Shown: positions 4,972 through 17,840 of the stretch, one piece after another
Position numbering within the stretch: the first letter of the stretch is position 1
Layout: each line of letters begins with the position of its first letter
Virus record (IMG/VR): IMGVR_UViG_3300010885_041448
Span: 1 to 20,257 of that record
Length of the DNA stretch: 20,257 nucleotides
Direction: 5' to 3' (one strand)
From: a virus
Made by a program: the position numbers and the translations under genes
Notes under the pieces: generated by a model
The model's input: only the letters and a program-made list of their open reading frames with translations
What the model was told of the DNA's origin: nothing
Database searches by the model: none

Positions 4972-5562
4972 ATGTCAAACAAGGTAATCGTAACTGACGC
5001 AGATGGCGTCTTGCTCAACTGGGAATGGGCCTTTGAAGTCTGGATGGAAGAGCACGGACACAAGCTGCAGCCAGACCATGCAGGTGCTTATGACATGGGA
5101 CTGCGCTATGGCATCAGCAAGGAAGATACCAAGAAGCTGATCAAGCTATTCAACGAGAGCGCTGCCATCGGATTCCTACCTGCGCTGCGCGATGCTACAT
5201 ACTACGTGAAGATGCTGCACGAAAAGCACGGCTACGTTTTCGATGTAGTGACCAGCCTCAGCACCAATCCCTATGCCCAGAAGCTGCGCAAGAAGAACCT
5301 GCGCAAGCTGTTTGGCGAGACTGCATTTCGCAAGTTCAAGTTCCTGACCACCGGCGGTGACAAGGATGCTGCGCTGCTGCCCTACAAGGACAGTGGTCTT
5401 TGGTGGATCGAGGACAAGATCGAAAATGCCGAGCTGGGACACAGCCTTGGCATGAAGAGCTTGCTAATGGCACATGGTCACAATTACACTTATGCTCATG
5501 ATGACATCCGGGTGGTCAAGGATTGGTCCGAGATCTACGAGATCATCTTAGCGAGCGAGTGA
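4972..5562 (+). CDS. HAD-superfamily hydrolase
   Basis: A 196-residue protein starting MSNKVIVTDADGVLLNWEWA. DADGV (D9, D11) is HAD motif I, with nucleophile and acid/base aspartates. VVTSLS near residue 100 fits motif II (T/S). WWIEDKIENAELG near 150 fits motif IV with acidic residues. A helical cap lies between motifs I and II. The likely reaction is phosphate ester hydrolysis; the substrate could be a nucleotide or a sugar phosphate and cannot be told from the sequence. ATG 4972 is preferred because the in-frame ATG 4948 is at the expected RNA start of P5. The stop overlaps the next ATG (TGATG). Confidence 0.85.
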   Translation: MSNKVIVTDADGVLLNWEWAFEVWMEEHGHKLQPDHAGAYDMGLRYGISKEDTKKLIKLFNESAAIGFLPALRDATYYVKMLHEKHGYVFDVVTSLSTNPYAQKLRKKNLRKLFGETAFRKFKFLTTGGDKDAALLPYKDSGLWWIEDKIENAELGHSLGMKSLLMAHGHNYTYAHDDIRVVKDWSEIYEIILASE

Positions 5563-6113
5563 TGCGAGTTGCCATAACTGGCCATACCAAGGGTATAGGA
5601 GCTGCACTGCACGCTTGGTTGTCATCTCAGGACCACGAAGTCCTTGGATTTAGCCGTGCTACGGGGCATGATATATCAGATGATGCTGTGCAAAAACAGC
5701 TGATAACCTTGGCATCTGGCTGTGATTTGTTCATCAACAATGCGTTTGCTGGATCAGCCCAGAGCAGCCTGCTGTTCAAGTTCTGGCACCAATGGAACCA
5801 ATCAGATCAAGGCAAGATGATCATTAATATAGGCAGCAGAGCCGCAGTTGATTATCGTAAGCGTGTCAAACCCATGCTCTATGACATGCACAAGCTTGGA
5901 CTGCGCGAACTGTCTGGTGATCTAGCCAGCCGTCCTGGTAACGTTCGAGTGTGTCATCTCACCATAGGCTATGTTGATGTCCTGTCCACCAAGCTCAAGG
6001 ACGTTCCCAAGCTAGATATAGATCCCGTGCTGCGCTGTGTGGAATTCATGCTTGCGATGCCTGAGCCTGTGCAGATTAGAGATCTGTTTTGCGAGGTTAA
6101 ATTAAAGATATAG
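5562..6113 (+). CDS. Short-chain dehydrogenase/reductase 1
   Basis: The 183-residue SDR starts MRVAITGHTKGIGAALHAWL. TGHTKGIG is the cofactor-binding TGxxxGIG loop; LFINNAF is the NNAG-type strand; IINIGSRAAV supplies the catalytic serine and YDMHK the Tyr and Lys of YxxxK. It is shorter than classical SDRs (about 250 residues), with reduced substrate-binding regions. An NAD(P)-dependent oxidation or reduction is expected; the substrate is unknown. Start overlaps the HAD stop (TGATG). It is followed after 3 bases by a paralogue, and both are probably read from P5. Confidence 0.88.
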   Translation: MRVAITGHTKGIGAALHAWLSSQDHEVLGFSRATGHDISDDAVQKQLITLASGCDLFINNAFAGSAQSSLLFKFWHQWNQSDQGKMIINIGSRAAVDYRKRVKPMLYDMHKLGLRELSGDLASRPGNVRVCHLTIGYVDVLSTKLKDVPKLDIDPVLRCVEFMLAMPEPVQIRDLFCEVKLKI

Positions 6114-6116
6114 ATC

Positions 6117-6701
6117 ATGATAATAGCATTAACTGGTCATACATCGGGCATAGGGTCTGCATTACACAAGCATCTGTGCTGCTGCCATGACGTGCGCGGA
6201 TTTAGTCGCACTGACATCCAGCCCAATGGATTCAAACGCAGCACTGGCTATGATATTGACACGCCAGATGGCAGATCAAAGATTGTTAATGATGCCAATG
6301 ATGCTGATGTGTTCATCAATAATGCCAGTGGACGTGGCGGGCAGGCTCAGCTCTTGATGCAGATGTGGGATGCTTGGTCAGGAACACCTACACCAAAGAT
6401 GATCATAAACATAGGCAGTAGAGCTGCAGTCAAACCTTCGGTTGTTCCAACCAATTATGACATGAATAAGCAGCTGCTGAGAGATCTGTCGTTGAGCCTG
6501 GCAGATAAGCAGAGCTATATCAGGGTCACGCATCTGATGTTTGGATATGCTGATACAGCCTCAGTGCGACACATACAGCGGCCAAAATTGATGATAGATG
6601 AGATAATCAAATTGGTAGACTGGGTGTTGACCATGCCTGAATCATTGCAAATGAGAGAACTGCATCTTGATCTCAAGATGTACTCACTATCTACTGATTG
6701 A
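6117..6701 (+). CDS. Short-chain dehydrogenase/reductase 2 (tandem paralogue)
   Basis: 194 residues starting MIIALTGHTSGIGSALHKHL. It keeps TGHTSGIG, VFINNASG, MIINIGSRAAV and YDMNK in the same order as the preceding SDR, so the two come from a tandem duplication or paired acquisition. The proteins have clearly diverged: the second has a longer loop after GFSRTD and a different C-terminal half. The gene looks richer in A/T-ending codons than its neighbours. Substrate unknown. It ends one base before the stop of the converging leftward gene. Confidence 0.88.
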   Translation: MIIALTGHTSGIGSALHKHLCCCHDVRGFSRTDIQPNGFKRSTGYDIDTPDGRSKIVNDANDADVFINNASGRGGQAQLLMQMWDAWSGTPTPKMIINIGSRAAVKPSVVPTNYDMNKQLLRDLSLSLADKQSYIRVTHLMFGYADTASVRHIQRPKLMIDEIIKLVDWVLTMPESLQMRELHLDLKMYSLSTD

Positions 6702-7524: not shown

Positions 7525-7554
7525 CAGCATCAGTTATTTATAATGCTGATGAAC
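7519..7554 (-). promoter_or_regulatory. Perfect 12-bp hairpin with late promoter in its loop
   Basis: GTTCATCAGCAT (7519-7530) and ATGCTGATGAAC (7543-7554) are perfect inverted copies with a 12-base loop at 7531-7542. On the minus strand the downstream arm contains both possible start codons of the leftward gene, and the loop contains TATAAATA. RNA made by read-through from mazG would fold and hide the start; RNA started at the late promoter would lack the upstream arm. Confidence 0.75.
7535..7542 (-). promoter_or_regulatory. T4-type late promoter octamer TATAAATA
   Basis: Exact match to the T4 late -10 octamer on the minus strand, in the loop of the 12-bp hairpin. With T4 spacing the RNA would start near 7529, so the message would be nearly leaderless and would favour ATG 7524 over 7530. 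Confidence 0.6.
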
Positions 7555-9852: not shown

Positions 9853-12612
9853 TCAGAAGCTGAACAGATCTTCAAAGCTGCTGTTGATCTTGTGCTCATT
9901 GATGTTCCACTTGAGCACACCCAGCAAGTTGTCCAGCTTCTTGTCTATGAGCGCAGCTTCCATGGCATCATGATCGAATGGCAGTTCCTTGAACCATGTT
10001 GGCAGCTTGAGCTCGTCTGTGGGATAGGCCACTGATGTCATGCCACTGGGATTGGGCAGCAGCTTGCACACGATCACCTTCTGTCCATCCTGGATGGGCA
10101 TGCTGTAGTTGTCGTTGTAGATGCGCTTGAGCTTGTTGTAGTTCAGCGACGCTAGCACATGTCCTGGTATCATTATCTTCTTGCCATTGCTGCGTCCTAT
10201 GGTAGCACGCTCCATCTGCTCTTGGTTCTTGGCATGGTTGGTGATGTTGTTGGCACGCTTGGGGCTACCCTTCTCCCAGCCTGGCCAGCTGCGGAACTCG
10301 CGCCTGAATGCGCTGATGCGTTCCAAGCTCTCTTCGCGCCCGCTGCCTGTGAGCACACCAACCAGCACGTCCTGCAGGAAGTCCTGCACAGTCTTGGGCG
10401 TGTCCGATCGCTTGAGATCCAAGCCCATGGCCTTGATCTCACCGGGCTTGCCATTGGTATCTCGGCGCTTGCCTTCCTTGTCATAGATGAGGATAGCATA
10501 CCGTTTCTTTGTTATGAATAAACCCTTTGTGCCGCATAGTTCACGTGCTGCCTTGATGATCTTGCCGTTTTCTTCTGGAGCATGGAACGCGGCATACATG
10601 AAGTCTGGGAAGCTGGCATTGGTCATGTCAGCGATGCCGTCATAGAGCTTGATCACATTCTCCTTGGTCCATTCATAGTCTGCATACTCTGCCTTGTCCT
10701 TCATCACGGGATATGCACTAAACACACCCGAATCGGTGTCACCATAGATTATGCTTTCGCCGACATGGTTGTATGATCCGGTTATGATCTCGTTGATCTT
10801 GCTCTGCATGTGCTTGACGATGCAGCGACCGCTCAGCGTGGTGCTCTGTGCCACTCGCGGATCATACCAGCGCGATCCAGGGTTGCCAACTGCACCATAG
10901 AGTGAGTTTAGCAAGATTTTGGCTATTAACTGACGTTGATCATAGAACACTGCCTGCCGCTTGGCTTCGGTCTTCTCATCAGGATCAGTGGCTTCATCTG
11001 CTAGCTTGGCCCACTTGCGATACTCTGCCTGCAGCTCCTTGCGTTCAGCAAACCATCTGGTGAGCACGCCTGGTATCAGTCCCTGCTTGCCATAATCAAA
11101 GATGGTGCCGTTGGCACTCAGTGTGAGCTGCTTGCCGCTGTTCCATACCAGATCGTACACTTCCTTGGCAGTGACCACCACTTCGTTACCATCTTCAAAC
11201 TGTATGGTCACCGGCGTGTTGTTCTGTTCCATCACTGCCTGATATTCCAGCGTGCCAAACACGCTGTTCCATGCGTCAGCAAAGCTTTTCTTCTGTGCTA
11301 TCTGTGCTTTCACGAACTGATCTGTGGCTTCTGGCTTGATCTGTCCCACGATGGTCTCTGTGCTCATGTTCAGCGCACGGATCACTGATGGATACAGTGA
11401 ATTGATGTCCACACCGCCGATCCAGTCGTGCATGCCTGGCTTGGGATCTGCCACATAAGCACCCACCACTGAGCCACCCATCTCTGCTTCTTCGTCCCAG
11501 CGTGCCTGCTTTTCTTCTTCGGTCTCACGTATCCTTGCTGGTACCATGAGATCCATGTCATGCGCTGCGTTCACGATGGCTTGGTCAATCAGCGTCACAG
11601 CACCCATGGTTGTCTGCAGCAGCACGCAGTTGGTGTGTGCGATGTTGTTGGCCAGCTCGATGAAACGGAGCTTGGCGTCGATCTTGACCAGCAGCTGCAC
11701 GTCCTGCCTGCTGTACTCAATGAACTTCTTGAAGTCATTGTTGTATAGCTGATCCAGCGTGCCTTCATATGGCACCTTGCGATCTCCCACCTCATACTCG
11801 CCGATGGCATCCAGGCGATATGAATGCATCTCATGATAGGTATGTTTGCGATACAGCTGCAGATAATCTAGATGGCAGCGACCAACCAGGTCATAGGTCA
11901 CTGTCTCGCGGCCATAGCTCTCATATTCTCTCTTCTTGGGATACTTGTTCCATAAGCACAGTCGTGCTGTCTCGGATTTGCCAAGGACCTGCACGATGCG
12001 ATTGTAGATGTAGGGAATATCATAGCTCTCTGAATTCCAACCCGTGAGGATGTCACAGTCTTCGATCAGCGTGAGGAATATGTCCAGCAGTTCTTTCTCG
12101 TTGGCACACAGCATGGTGTCTGAGAATTCTGCACAGATGTCTTCAGCCACCTGCTGGCTCATCTTGCGTGGTTTCAGCACCAGCGTGATGTTGCGCTCCA
12201 TCCAGTTGAGATAGAGGCTGATGGCAGTGATCTGGCTGAAAGCATCCTCAGGCGTGCTGAATCCACGCAGGGGATCGAAGTCAGTCTCAATGTCGAAGAA
12301 GCCCACGCGCAGCTGCGGTGCTGGTGCATCGCGATAGTTGTCATAGAGACAGCGGAAGATGGGATTGATGTCGCTCTCGTGCAGCTTGCCCTTGGGCAGC
12401 ACTCCCAGCTCGCGCTTGAATTCCTTGTCCTTGTTGGTCTGGAACTTATCCAGCTTGGTGCCAAAGATGCTGGTGTACTTGCCTCGCTCTGAGGGCCAAT
12501 ACACCACGTATCTGGTTGGATGTTCTGTGAGCACTCGCCTGCCATCTGGCAAGCGTTCTGCTACATAGATTGTGTTCTTCTCACGGTCGATTATCGCATC
12601 GACGTAACTCAT
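9853..12612 (-). CDS. gp43: Replicative DNA polymerase, family B, T4 gp43-like
   Basis: 919 residues (T4 gp43 is 898), 3'-5' exonuclease then polymerase. Exo I FFDIET (D107, E109), Exo II GWNSESYDIP (N193, D198), Exo III YSRQD (Y300, D304). Polymerase motif A DINSLYPS (D402), motif B KILLNSLYG (565-573), motif C YGDTDS (D625, D627) and the KKRY motif TKKRYAI. The C-terminal end SSFEDLFSF resembles the clamp-binding peptide of gp43-type polymerases (LFDMF in RB69), consistent with the gp45-like clamp nearby. ATG 12612 follows AAGGAGG (12624-12618) at 5 bases. A 4-bp stem with 8-base loop abuts that site, as in the autogenous operator of T4 gp43. All catalytic residues seem intact. This is the main replicase. 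Confidence 0.96.
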   Translation of the reverse strand: MSYVDAIIDREKNTIYVAERLPDGRRVLTEHPTRYVVYWPSERGKYTSIFGTKLDKFQTNKDKEFKRELGVLPKGKLHESDINPIFRCLYDNYRDAPAPQLRVGFFDIETDFDPLRGFSTPEDAFSQITAISLYLNWMERNITLVLKPRKMSQQVAEDICAEFSDTMLCANEKELLDIFLTLIEDCDILTGWNSESYDIPYIYNRIVQVLGKSETARLCLWNKYPKKREYESYGRETVTYDLVGRCHLDYLQLYRKHTYHEMHSYRLDAIGEYEVGDRKVPYEGTLDQLYNNDFKKFIEYSRQDVQLLVKIDAKLRFIELANNIAHTNCVLLQTTMGAVTLIDQAIVNAAHDMDLMVPARIRETEEEKQARWDEEAEMGGSVVGAYVADPKPGMHDWIGGVDINSLYPSVIRALNMSTETIVGQIKPEATDQFVKAQIAQKKSFADAWNSVFGTLEYQAVMEQNNTPVTIQFEDGNEVVVTAKEVYDLVWNSGKQLTLSANGTIFDYGKQGLIPGVLTRWFAERKELQAEYRKWAKLADEATDPDEKTEAKRQAVFYDQRQLIAKILLNSLYGAVGNPGSRWYDPRVAQSTTLSGRCIVKHMQSKINEIITGSYNHVGESIIYGDTDSGVFSAYPVMKDKAEYADYEWTKENVIKLYDGIADMTNASFPDFMYAAFHAPEENGKIIKAARELCGTKGLFITKKRYAILIYDKEGKRRDTNGKPGEIKAMGLDLKRSDTPKTVQDFLQDVLVGVLTGSGREESLERISAFRREFRSWPGWEKGSPKRANNITNHAKNQEQMERATIGRSNGKKIMIPGHVLASLNYNKLKRIYNDNYSMPIQDGQKVIVCKLLPNPSGMTSVAYPTDELKLPTWFKELPFDHDAMEAALIDKKLDNLLGVLKWNINEHKINSSFEDLFSF

Positions 12613-15917: not shown

Positions 15918-15925
15918 TATTTAAG
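15918..15925 (-). promoter_or_regulatory. Weak late-type octamer CTTAAATA
   Basis: Six of eight bases match TATAAATA. It lies between the pstS terminator and the methyltransferase-like start, the only place for a promoter of that gene. RNA would begin at or inside the start codon, so the message would be leaderless. Tentative. Confidence 0.25.
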
Positions 15926-15928
15926 GTC

Positions 15929-15953
15929 AAAAGGAAGGGGCGCACCGCGCCCC
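15929..15953 (-). terminator. Rho-independent terminator after pstS
   Basis: GGGGCGC, loop GGT, GCGCCCC (15953-15937 on the minus strand), followed by TTCCTTTT. A 7-bp stem of G:C pairs 29 bases after the pstS stop. The T tract is interrupted by CC. Together with the Pho promoter it makes pstS a self-contained unit. Confidence 0.8.
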
Positions 15954-15982
15954 TGTCCACACCAATCTGCGCAATCTGGCAG

Positions 15983-16918
15983 TTACTTGGTGGTTATCTG
16001 TGCGAACGTCTTCTTGACTTCTGCTTTCTGAGCAGCTGTGAGAGGCACGTAGTCCAGAGCTTGTGCTTCCTTGTCGTGTGCAAAAGCATACTCAAAGAAC
16101 TTGATAGCGTCTGCTGCAGCTTTCTTGTCGTCTGGAGCTTTGTACATGACGATGTAGCTGGTTGCTATCATTGGCCACGTGCCCTGGAAGCTCTTGAGAT
16201 TTGGCTCAACTGCCTTGCCATCGCTGCCCAACATCTTTACCCAGCTGAGATTATTGCTCTTGGCAAACGCATATTCTACGTAACCGATGCTGCCGTTGGT
16301 CTGCAGCACATTGTTGGCCACACCGTCGTTGCCCTTGGCACCGATCGCACCGCCGACCCACTCCACAGTCTGACCGAAACCATAGGTCTTCTTCCAGTCA
16401 GCATTGGCTTCTGCCAGAAAACGTGTGAAGTTCCAAGTGGTACCCGAGCCGTCTGAACGGCGGATCTTGATGATCGGAAGGTCTGGTAGCTTGATTGCAG
16501 GATTGAGCGCAGCTATTTCTTTGTCGTTCCAGCGCTTGATCTTTTCCATGTAGATCTTGGCCATTATGTCAGTGTTGAGCACTAACTTGCCTGCTTCTAC
16601 TTCCTTGAGGTTTACTACTGGCACGATACCGCCAATGATCATTGGAAACTGTACCTGGCCCTTCTTGTCCAGATCAGCAGCACTTACTGGGATGTCTGTG
16701 GCACCAAACGTCACTGTCTTGGCGTCAATCTGCTTCATGCCTGCGCCAGAACCAATGCTCTGATAGTTTAGCTGGTCGCCGCTGACCTTCTTGTAATCAT
16801 CAGCCCACTTGCTGTAGATAGGGAATGGGAATGTCGCGCCTGCACCTGTGATGTCACCGGCCCATGCTGATGTAGCCACCACTGCAGCTACCACTGATAA
16901 TGCGATTTTCTTTAGCAT
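15983..16918 (-). CDS. pstS: Phosphate-binding periplasmic protein PstS
   Basis: 311 residues. A signal peptide (MLKKIALSVVAAVVATSAWA, cleavage after A20) directs it to the periplasm. The mature part begins GDITGAGATFPFPIYSKWAD, and the phosphate-binding blocks GSGAG, FGATDIP, RRSDGSGTTWNF and GKGNDG are all present. KFFEYAF and a basic end follow. E. coli PstS is 346; here the stretch before the WPMIATSYIVMYK strand is about 20 residues shorter than in E. coli. Its role is high-affinity phosphate capture for the host PstCAB transporter; no pstCAB genes are in the window. AGGAGAGG upstream of ATG 16918. Expression from a Pho box suggests control by host PhoB. Strong likeness to beta/gammaproteobacterial PstS suggests acquisition from a host. 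Confidence 0.97.
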   Translation of the reverse strand: MLKKIALSVVAAVVATSAWAGDITGAGATFPFPIYSKWADDYKKVSGDQLNYQSIGSGAGMKQIDAKTVTFGATDIPVSAADLDKKGQVQFPMIIGGIVPVVNLKEVEAGKLVLNTDIMAKIYMEKIKRWNDKEIAALNPAIKLPDLPIIKIRRSDGSGTTWNFTRFLAEANADWKKTYGFGQTVEWVGGAIGAKGNDGVANNVLQTNGSIGYVEYAFAKSNNLSWVKMLGSDGKAVEPNLKSFQGTWPMIATSYIVMYKAPDDKKAAADAIKFFEYAFAHDKEAQALDYVPLTAAQKAEVKKTFAQITTK

Positions 16919-16951
16919 CTAGGTTGTCCTCTCCTGTTGGTATTCCGAGGA

Positions 16952-16997
16952 TATTTAAGAACCCTAAGATGACAATACGATTACAATATGATGACAA
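16952..16997 (-). promoter_or_regulatory. Pho box promoter of pstS
   Basis: On the minus strand three half-sites TTGTCAT, TTGTAAT, TTGTCAT start at 16997, 16986 and 16975, each followed by 4 bases, so the spacing is exactly 11. This is the PhoB direct-repeat pattern (CTGTCAT-N4 repeated). Eleven bases after the last half-site lies TAAATA (16957-16952) as a -10 box, the usual distance for PhoB-activated promoters that lack a -35 box. The start codon is 34 bases further. Confidence 0.85.
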
Positions 16998-17003
16998 ACG
17001 GTG

Positions 17004-17840
17004 TCATAGTTGCCTGATGTAGGATCTTATTGGATCATCCATGCGGCGAGCGATGCGCTTCACAGAGAATATGCCATCTGTGCTCACTGGGGCCCACTGA
17101 TACACGAAGTTATGAGGCTGCCAGAATGTCAGTGCGCTGTTGCTGCGCACAGCATCTATGAATTCTGTGTGCATGATGTCGTGGCTGTTGTGATTGAATG
17201 CGCAGTAGGGGGTAAGGAACGGTGATCGACCAGAGAGATGATAGGCTAGCGTGGGAAAGTAACATTCTTCTGCAGCCCAATCAAACCATAGCTGATCATA
17301 GCTGTAGTTGGCCATGCTCCAATCCACGATTTCTTGGAACAGCTCCCTGCTCCACCAGCTGCCTTCGATGAGATTGCCCAGATAGTTGTGGAGGTCGCTG
17401 CCGTCAAACAGATCCTTGAACAGCCGATCCCGATAGGCATTGCGCAGTGCAGGCCATGCCATCTCATGCGGTTGACTATCTGGACCAAACCACAGCGCAT
17501 AATCTGACTGCGTGATGCGATCGGTCAGACCTTGGCGCACGAACAGCTCGTTGGTGTGCATCACCGCAAAGTAGTCAAACTCTAGCTTGTTGGCCACTGC
17601 TACTTGGAAATTCATGATGTGATGCACGATGTGTGCATTACCATGCTTGCTGGTTATCCTATGCGGATTCAACCACACACCAGGAGTCTTCAGCTGAGCT
17701 GGATCAAAATCCGACCATGTGGCGTTGGCCATGATGATGAACTGATGATGCTCGCCGTTCCACTTGCGGGCATTGGCTATAGCATCATCCAGCACTGCTT
17801 GGTTCTCGTGTGCAGGAATGCTGAAAAGTATGGTCTTCAT
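17004..17840 (-). CDS. Glycosyltransferase-like protein (tentative)
   Basis: 278 residues starting MKTILFSIPAHENQAVLDDA. The start strand-helix, HHQFIIMANATWSDFD, then VHHIMNFQVAVANKLEFDYFAVMHTNELFVRQGL resemble the N-terminal half of GT-A type and core-2/I-branching glycosyltransferases, where a strand ending in a D/N/E motif precedes an acceptor region. SWWSRELFQEIVDW and WAAEECYFPTLAYHL fit the later W/E-rich region of such enzymes (E-E-x-x-F-P). No classical DxD is clear. The start overlaps the nucleotidyltransferase-HAD stop by 4 bases (ATGA). The product, if a glycosyltransferase, could use the activated sugar made by the two upstream genes. Confidence 0.65.
   Translation of the reverse strand: MKTILFSIPAHENQAVLDDAIANARKWNGEHHQFIIMANATWSDFDPAQLKTPGVWLNPHRITSKHGNAHIVHHIMNFQVAVANKLEFDYFAVMHTNELFVRQGLTDRITQSDYALWFGPDSQPHEMAWPALRNAYRDRLFKDLFDGSDLHNYLGNLIEGSWWSRELFQEIVDWSMANYSYDQLWFDWAAEECYFPTLAYHLSGRSPFLTPYCAFNHNSHDIMHTEFIDAVRSNSALTFWQPHNFVYQWAPVSTDGIFSVKRIARRMDDPIRSYIRQL

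Follow-up and report, generated by a model that had tools for sequence, protein, structure and literature searches.

Control of a phage pstS gene by the PhoBR system of the host is established for the cyanophage P-SSM2 in Prochlorococcus (Zeng and Chisholm, 2012, as cited in PMC10976474), and in cyanophages the starvation sensor of the host has already been shown to control phage nutrient genes. In the cyanophages examined, pstS follows a DUF680 gene after a gap of 9-41 nt, and the upstream promoter carries cyanobacterial CTTA-type boxes; a study covering pstS/DUF680 clusters saw no single regulatory solution for pstS among nine cyanophages (PMC3037559). The same 2010 comparison of T4-like genomes lists pstS among the genes missing from all non-cyanophages, and a 2024 survey that lists pstS from freshwater and marine phages says nothing in its text on promoters or Pho boxes (PMC10987575). 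In the literature searched, mostly outside subscription journals, no phage pstS is described as lying behind a Pho box of the E. coli type, which is weak evidence of absence. Bacterial pstS promoters of the E. coli type consist of tandem 11-bp half-sites that replace the -35 element, and of a weak -10 about 10-11 nt downstream.

The window analysed here, a stretch of 20,257 nucleotides of viral DNA, resembles the cyanophage case in that a lone phage pstS is preceded by predicted boxes for the PhoB of the host and would boost phosphate uptake of a starved host. Unlike in cyanophages, an E. coli-type tandem box stands directly before pstS, an arrangement that recurs at most of the phage pstS loci found, while the DUF680 neighbour and the CTTA-type boxes of the cyanophage clusters are not present at this locus and neighbouring genes encode other domains or none. 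The pstS gene (15983..16918, minus strand) is an intact reading frame for a periplasmic phosphate-binding protein of 311 aa with a signal-peptide-like N-terminus. Its product matches PF12849 (E 7e-34) and the phosphate transporter family phrog_5385, and in alignments to PstS proteins of solved structure, among them PDB 2z22, the conserved phosphate-site residues are retained (GATF, GS, D, and RRxDGSGT in the case of 2z22); PBP fold family, homology, ligand residues, and signal peptide all agree with its assignment to PstS. The nearest cultured relatives of the phage, judged by its polymerase, are jumbo phages of Sinorhizobium and Agrobacterium (47-49%), and a DNA search for close cultured phages found none. 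The co-directional upstream gene (17004..17840, minus strand) belongs to no known family and shares only about 44% identity with its counterparts in relatives where the flanking genes are 75-98% identical, suggesting fast evolution or exchange.

Three half-sites, TTGTCAT (16991..16997), TTGTAAT (16980..16986), and TTGTCAT (16969..16975), stand on the minus strand in exact 11-bp register (16997-16969), the first beginning 6 nt after the end of the upstream gene and the third being nearest to the -10. Exactly 11 bases lie between half-site 3 and the first base of TAAATA (16957-16952), which forms part of the -10 element TTAAATA (16952..16958, minus strand). Read on the minus strand, the region runs ...CAACTATGA (stop of the upstream gene) CACCGT TTGTCAT CATA TTGTAAT CGTA TTGTCAT CTTAGGGTTCT TAAATA and continues with TCCTCGGAATACCAAC AGGAGAGG ACAACCTAG to the ATG of pstS, AGGAGAGG being a Shine-Dalgarno-like element (16928..16935, minus strand) 9 nt 5' of this ATG. 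Where a Pho box is defined by at least two direct repeats similar to TTGTCAT or CTGTCAT at 11 bp and by a -10 about 10-11 nt past the last of them, the window thus offers three exact units and TAAATA after 11 nt. The first-pass annotation had described the half-sites, their 11-base spacing, and the -10 box 11 bases on, and each of these proves exact. It had also pointed to an inverted TGTCATA (17002..17008, plus strand); this sequence is present and overlaps the stop of the upstream gene (17004-17006) as described, but nothing indicates a function for it as a fourth half-site. It is not a direct PhoB half-site, it is changed in the related locus L004 (TATGACG), and its letters are accounted for by the final codon and stop of that upstream gene, so that we judge it incidental.

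The matrix used for scoring PhoB half-sites draws on seven Pho-regulon promoters of E. coli K-12; the host of the window phage may have other PhoB and sigma preferences. The two-unit, 22-bp score of 16.2 is not significant alone, as 152 of 1000 dinucleotide shuffles across the full 20 kb reach it, whereas the three-unit score of 25.6 is reached in 2 of 1000 such shuffles and in none of 5000 restricted to the promoter region. Three copies of TTGTNAT at 11-bp spacing do not occur in any of 1000 whole-window shuffles, and taken singly, TTGTNAT occurs 13 times in the window against 11.4 expected, which is no enrichment. An earlier 22-bp matrix built from eight E. coli sites, some of them mis-set, gave no significant result over the 20 kb.

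In IMG/VR, 30 proteins related to this PstS provided as many upstream regions, and a profile search added further loci; clustering at 90% DNA identity left 64 nonredundant phage pstS genes, and a site was counted when it scored at least 9 within 130 nt upstream. By this measure a Pho site precedes pstS in 51 of the 64 clusters and is lacking in 13, the background for the same score being 337 of 12800 random 130-nt windows from the same loci (2.6%). The Fisher value for this comparison (9e-67) is indicative only, because the loci share descent to varying degrees and p values of this kind overstate their independence. In most of the original 30 loci the site upstream of pstS is the best-scoring position of the whole locus. 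A strict two-unit pattern occurs nine times in 18 larger contigs of pstS phages (about 2 Mb), eight times directly 5' and once directly 3' of pstS. Within the window lineage (the window, L003, and L004) the 7-mers are kept and most of the 4-nt spacers differ; half-site 1 is also kept in L161, half-site 2 is TTGTAAT in L003 and L004 and ATTTCAT in L161, and half-site 3 is invariant in all four, so that L161 keeps two of the three. Of 31 bacterial pstS genes, 25 are preceded by a site that the same E. coli matrix recognises. The record of Campylobacter phage A11a (MG065691.1 27075-33980, L123) also includes a pstS of E. coli type together with the Pho box of E. coli pstS; this entry, marked UNVERIFIED, was taken as probable contamination and left out.

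The shuffle statistics and the conservation across many phages strongly support the proposal of the first-pass annotation that a PhoB-type promoter precedes pstS, and the scan with a PhoB matrix that it had called for gives, for three units, a score above background. Its remark that control of a phage pstS by host PhoB is known from cyanophages agrees with the work on P-SSM2 as cited, and its assignment to a general proteobacterial rather than cyanobacterial type is in line with recognition of the site by the E. coli matrix, cyanophage pstS promoters reading differently. From its sequence, we regard the site in the window as real and almost certainly a PhoB promoter, to which PhoB would be expected to bind.

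This promoter is part of a cassette with pstS and a terminator. A terminator-like GC hairpin (AGGGGCGCGGTGCGCCCCT, then TCCTTTT; 15936..15954, minus strand) closes the pstS cassette and is recognisable in L003, L004, and L161. In L003 and L004 the upstream gene is succeeded by the Pho promoter, pstS, the GC hairpin, a small ORF, and the next gene; the small ORF is missing from the window. In L158, a close relative with 94% identity in the polymerase, the small ORF comes immediately after the upstream gene, and this locus has neither Pho box nor pstS. Such an own promoter and terminator between phage genes, together with sporadic presence among close relatives, are the features of moron cassettes, which have been described generally for other phages. 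Here, however, the promoter is predicted to answer to starvation of the host, and it survives a swap of the gene that it drives. In L161 the neighbouring genes are mostly about 82-97% identical, yet PstS is only 53% identical, and in the PstS tree the window clade is supported with 100/100, while L161 falls in another clade together with L058 (99/88). The pstS promoter of L161 nevertheless reads TTGTCAT-N4-ATTTCAT-N4-TTGTCAT-N11-TAAATA. The same array and -10 in front of a different PstS lineage indicate that the promoter outlived the replacement of its gene, unless PstS has diverged to an extreme degree.

The -10 of this promoter is at the same time what looks like the promoter motif of the phage family itself. 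TAAATA has only six copies in the 20-kb window, all of them intergenic and five situated 4-33 nt 5' of an ORF. With pstS excluded, its density in the window, L003, and L004 is 1.81 per kb in intergenic and 0.05 per kb in genic DNA, and for eleven loci belonging to this polymerase lineage the values are 1.51 and 0.14. Because intergenic DNA is AT-rich, strand was used as a control: upstream of genes in the window lineage, Pho promoters excluded, 28 copies are sense and 6 antisense, and the motif of the lineage can be written as (A/T)TAAATA. A genome-wide count of TATAAATAY against its reversed pattern was discarded, as TATAAATAT is the same when read backwards, and the sense/antisense count was used instead. 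T4 late promoters have the sequence TATAAATA and those of cyanophage S-PM2 NATAAATA (PMC2984593). The motif of the window lineage shares with T4-type late promoters the TAAATA core and its intergenic, strand-specific position just 5' of ORFs, and four large pstS contigs, as well as a 518-kb relative of the window phage, encode a late sigma factor of the gp55 family, the window itself comprising only 20 kb. The pstS copy differs from T4 TATAAATA in that the upstream TA is CT (6 of 8 positions match) and in that a Pho box stands before it. Among 51 phage pstS promoters, 23 have TAAATA exactly at offset 11 past the Pho box; among 25 bacterial ones, none does. Considering these figures, the intergenic and strand bias of TAAATA, and the gp55 genes of relatives, we interpret the window promoter as a combination of a Pho box with a -10 of the phage itself; one or two polymerases might use it. 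Overlapping early and late promoters in phages RB49 and S-PM2 (PMC2984593) likewise place host sigma70 and phage late machinery at one gene start, the difference being that a host nutrient regulator would here control the host-type half. Copies of TAAATA also stand 4-5 nt before conserved start codons (window 7535-7540 and 15918-15923, L003:7112, L004:7183, L158, and L161); the one at 15918..15923 (minus strand), for example, lies 4 nt 5' of the ATG of the gene following pstS (15913). At this distance a transcript would start at or beside the AUG, so that some phage mRNAs may be leaderless.

The reading that we favour, with a probability of roughly 0.88, is that a T4-like and probably jumbo phage carries a self-contained cassette of promoter, pstS, and terminator, driven by the PhoB of the host. 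In a host short of phosphate, PhoR would phosphorylate PhoB, and the phosphorylated PhoB would bind the tandem 11-bp half-sites and bring the sigma70 RNA polymerase of the host to the weak -10 eleven nucleotides downstream. Phage PstS would then be made, exported, and supply phosphate to the PstCAB transporter of the host for phage DNA synthesis, presumably to the benefit of the phage. As TTAAATA also appears to be a promoter element of the phage family, the start region would probably be usable by a phage-modified polymerase (late, gp55-type) at any phosphate level. Searches of 17 contigs of pstS phages detected neither an OmpR/PhoB-type DNA-binding domain (Trans_reg_C, PF00486) nor an ABC permease (BPD_transp_1, PF00528), while controls were detected, and no match to PstC was seen near any pstS in the phage loci examined. 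The phage pstS thus stands without a pstCAB partner, as expected of an auxiliary gene and unlike the bacterial counterpart, the window being a 20-kb fragment; regulator and remaining transporter are most likely those of the host, PhoB and PstCAB.

A closely related explanation is that of a plain PhoB/sigma70 promoter in which TTAAAT serves as a weak host -10 and pstS is silent in phosphate-replete hosts. We consider this quite possible, if at somewhat less than even odds. TTAAAT, at 10 nt, agrees with the -10 consensus at 4 of 6 positions, bacterial pstS promoters being equally weak (mean 3.4 matches), for which reason an initial idea that TTAAATA is barred as a sigma70 -10 was abandoned; also, in related clades the same Pho boxes are followed by other -10s (TATATA or TAAATT). 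Against it stand the offset-11 preference for TAAATA, peculiar to the phage promoters, the identity of TAAATA with the window phage's own promoter motif, and the possibility of read-through from upstream. No terminator is seen before the window pstS, and its leader holds no terminator-like or Shine-Dalgarno-sequestering hairpin, so that read-through RNA from the co-directional upstream gene can also reach pstS; a CCTC...GAGG pairing in the leader was dismissed, as it is not kept in L004. The suggestion of the first-pass annotation that the phage could boost uptake only in starved hosts is therefore not borne out by the locus: a -10 that is the phage's own motif, together with the unshielded upstream side, makes expression outside starvation likely possible. 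A phosphate-gated promoter overlapping a phage promoter fits better than starvation-only expression, and expression of pstS is probably not limited to starved hosts.

That the late-type TTAAATA is the sole driver of pstS, with the Pho-like repeats present as a relic or by chance, appears improbable. TAAATA is indeed a real promoter-like motif of the window lineage, but the half-sites are conserved between diverging spacers, survive the exchange of pstS, and stand before pstS in the great majority of clusters, among them clades without TAAATA. As a rule, regulators of the OmpR family bind tandem repeats with a period of about 10-11 bp, and the array might by this token be bound by another member of the family, from host or phage. 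We regard this as even less probable than a purely late promoter, since the E. coli PhoB matrix, which also finds sites before most bacterial pstS genes, recognises the half-sites, the driven gene is pstS, and 17 related contigs gave no match to Trans_reg_C.

Returning to the cassette presumed to be driven by host PhoB, a second design of its promoter exists in the clade of L007, L013, L015-L016, L018-L027, L031, and L056, where the -10 is TATATA or a near variant and is directly followed by a terminator-like hairpin with a U-run that overlaps the predicted start (e.g., L015:95-145). A hairpin between Pho box and ATG is found in 7 of 53 representative loci, with 0.7 expected, and its stem usually starts 13-21 nt past the last half-site, stem sequences being varied. 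A start 6-7 nt past the TATATA -10 would fall inside the 5' arm of the hairpin. RNA coming from the upstream gene may thus be terminated, while RNA started under PhoB would lack the arm and escape. Tentatively, and with less than even confidence, we propose a class of hybrid promoters in which a host Pho box stands at a fixed distance from a phage late-type -10, allowing two modes of pstS expression, phosphate-gated early via PhoB/sigma70 and unconditional late via the phage sigma factor, with a TATATA -10 and a start-site terminator taking their place in sister clades. With the cassette, the gene swap, the late-type -10, and the overlapping terminator, it becomes testable whether phosphate gating in phages evolves to be strict or leaky; these features also link the fitness of phages to how far phosphate is limiting in lakes and seas. 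If the favoured reading is true, the logic known from cyanophages would be general, as most phage pstS genes found here would be wired to host PhoB in phages that, by sequence type, are expected in proteobacteria; the wiring would also be specific, as the strict box occurs in large contigs only at pstS or right beside it.

Several neighbouring genes deserve mention. In the AT-rich clade, a gene for a secreted, probably β-barrel outer-membrane protein (weak matches to OMP_b-brl, Opacity, and KdgM) is situated just 5' of pstS (L016:4872-5513, L025:5236-5874, L013:5204-5842), and its product might, judging from sequence, act as a porin partner. A calcineurin-like phosphoesterase is encoded near pstS, often followed by a GT4 glycosyltransferase, in L087 (4135-6066) and L072 (4072-4914) and likewise in L064, L078, L088, L095, L096, L098, L107, and L114; the phosphoesterase gene of L087 has a Pho box of its own. 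The phosphoesterase-GT4 pair is present in 8 of 12 bacterial homologue loci and resembles plcP-agt, the lipid-renovation genes of phosphorus-starved bacteria (PMC4796936). A phage-driven salvage of membrane phosphate by this pair is possible. An ammonium transporter gene of the marine subtype adjoins pstS in L071 (4493-5713), as do TerC-like and fatty-acid desaturase genes in L075 (4149-5102 and 5852-6556). Elsewhere in the window, 195-2012 encodes a 605-aa protein similar to bacterial DNA polymerase III alpha (PF07733, PF17657), in addition to a family B polymerase (9853-12612), and two adjacent, similar ORFs with a resemblance to short-chain dehydrogenases (5523-6113 and 6117-6701, with one weak adh_short match) represent a tandem duplication.
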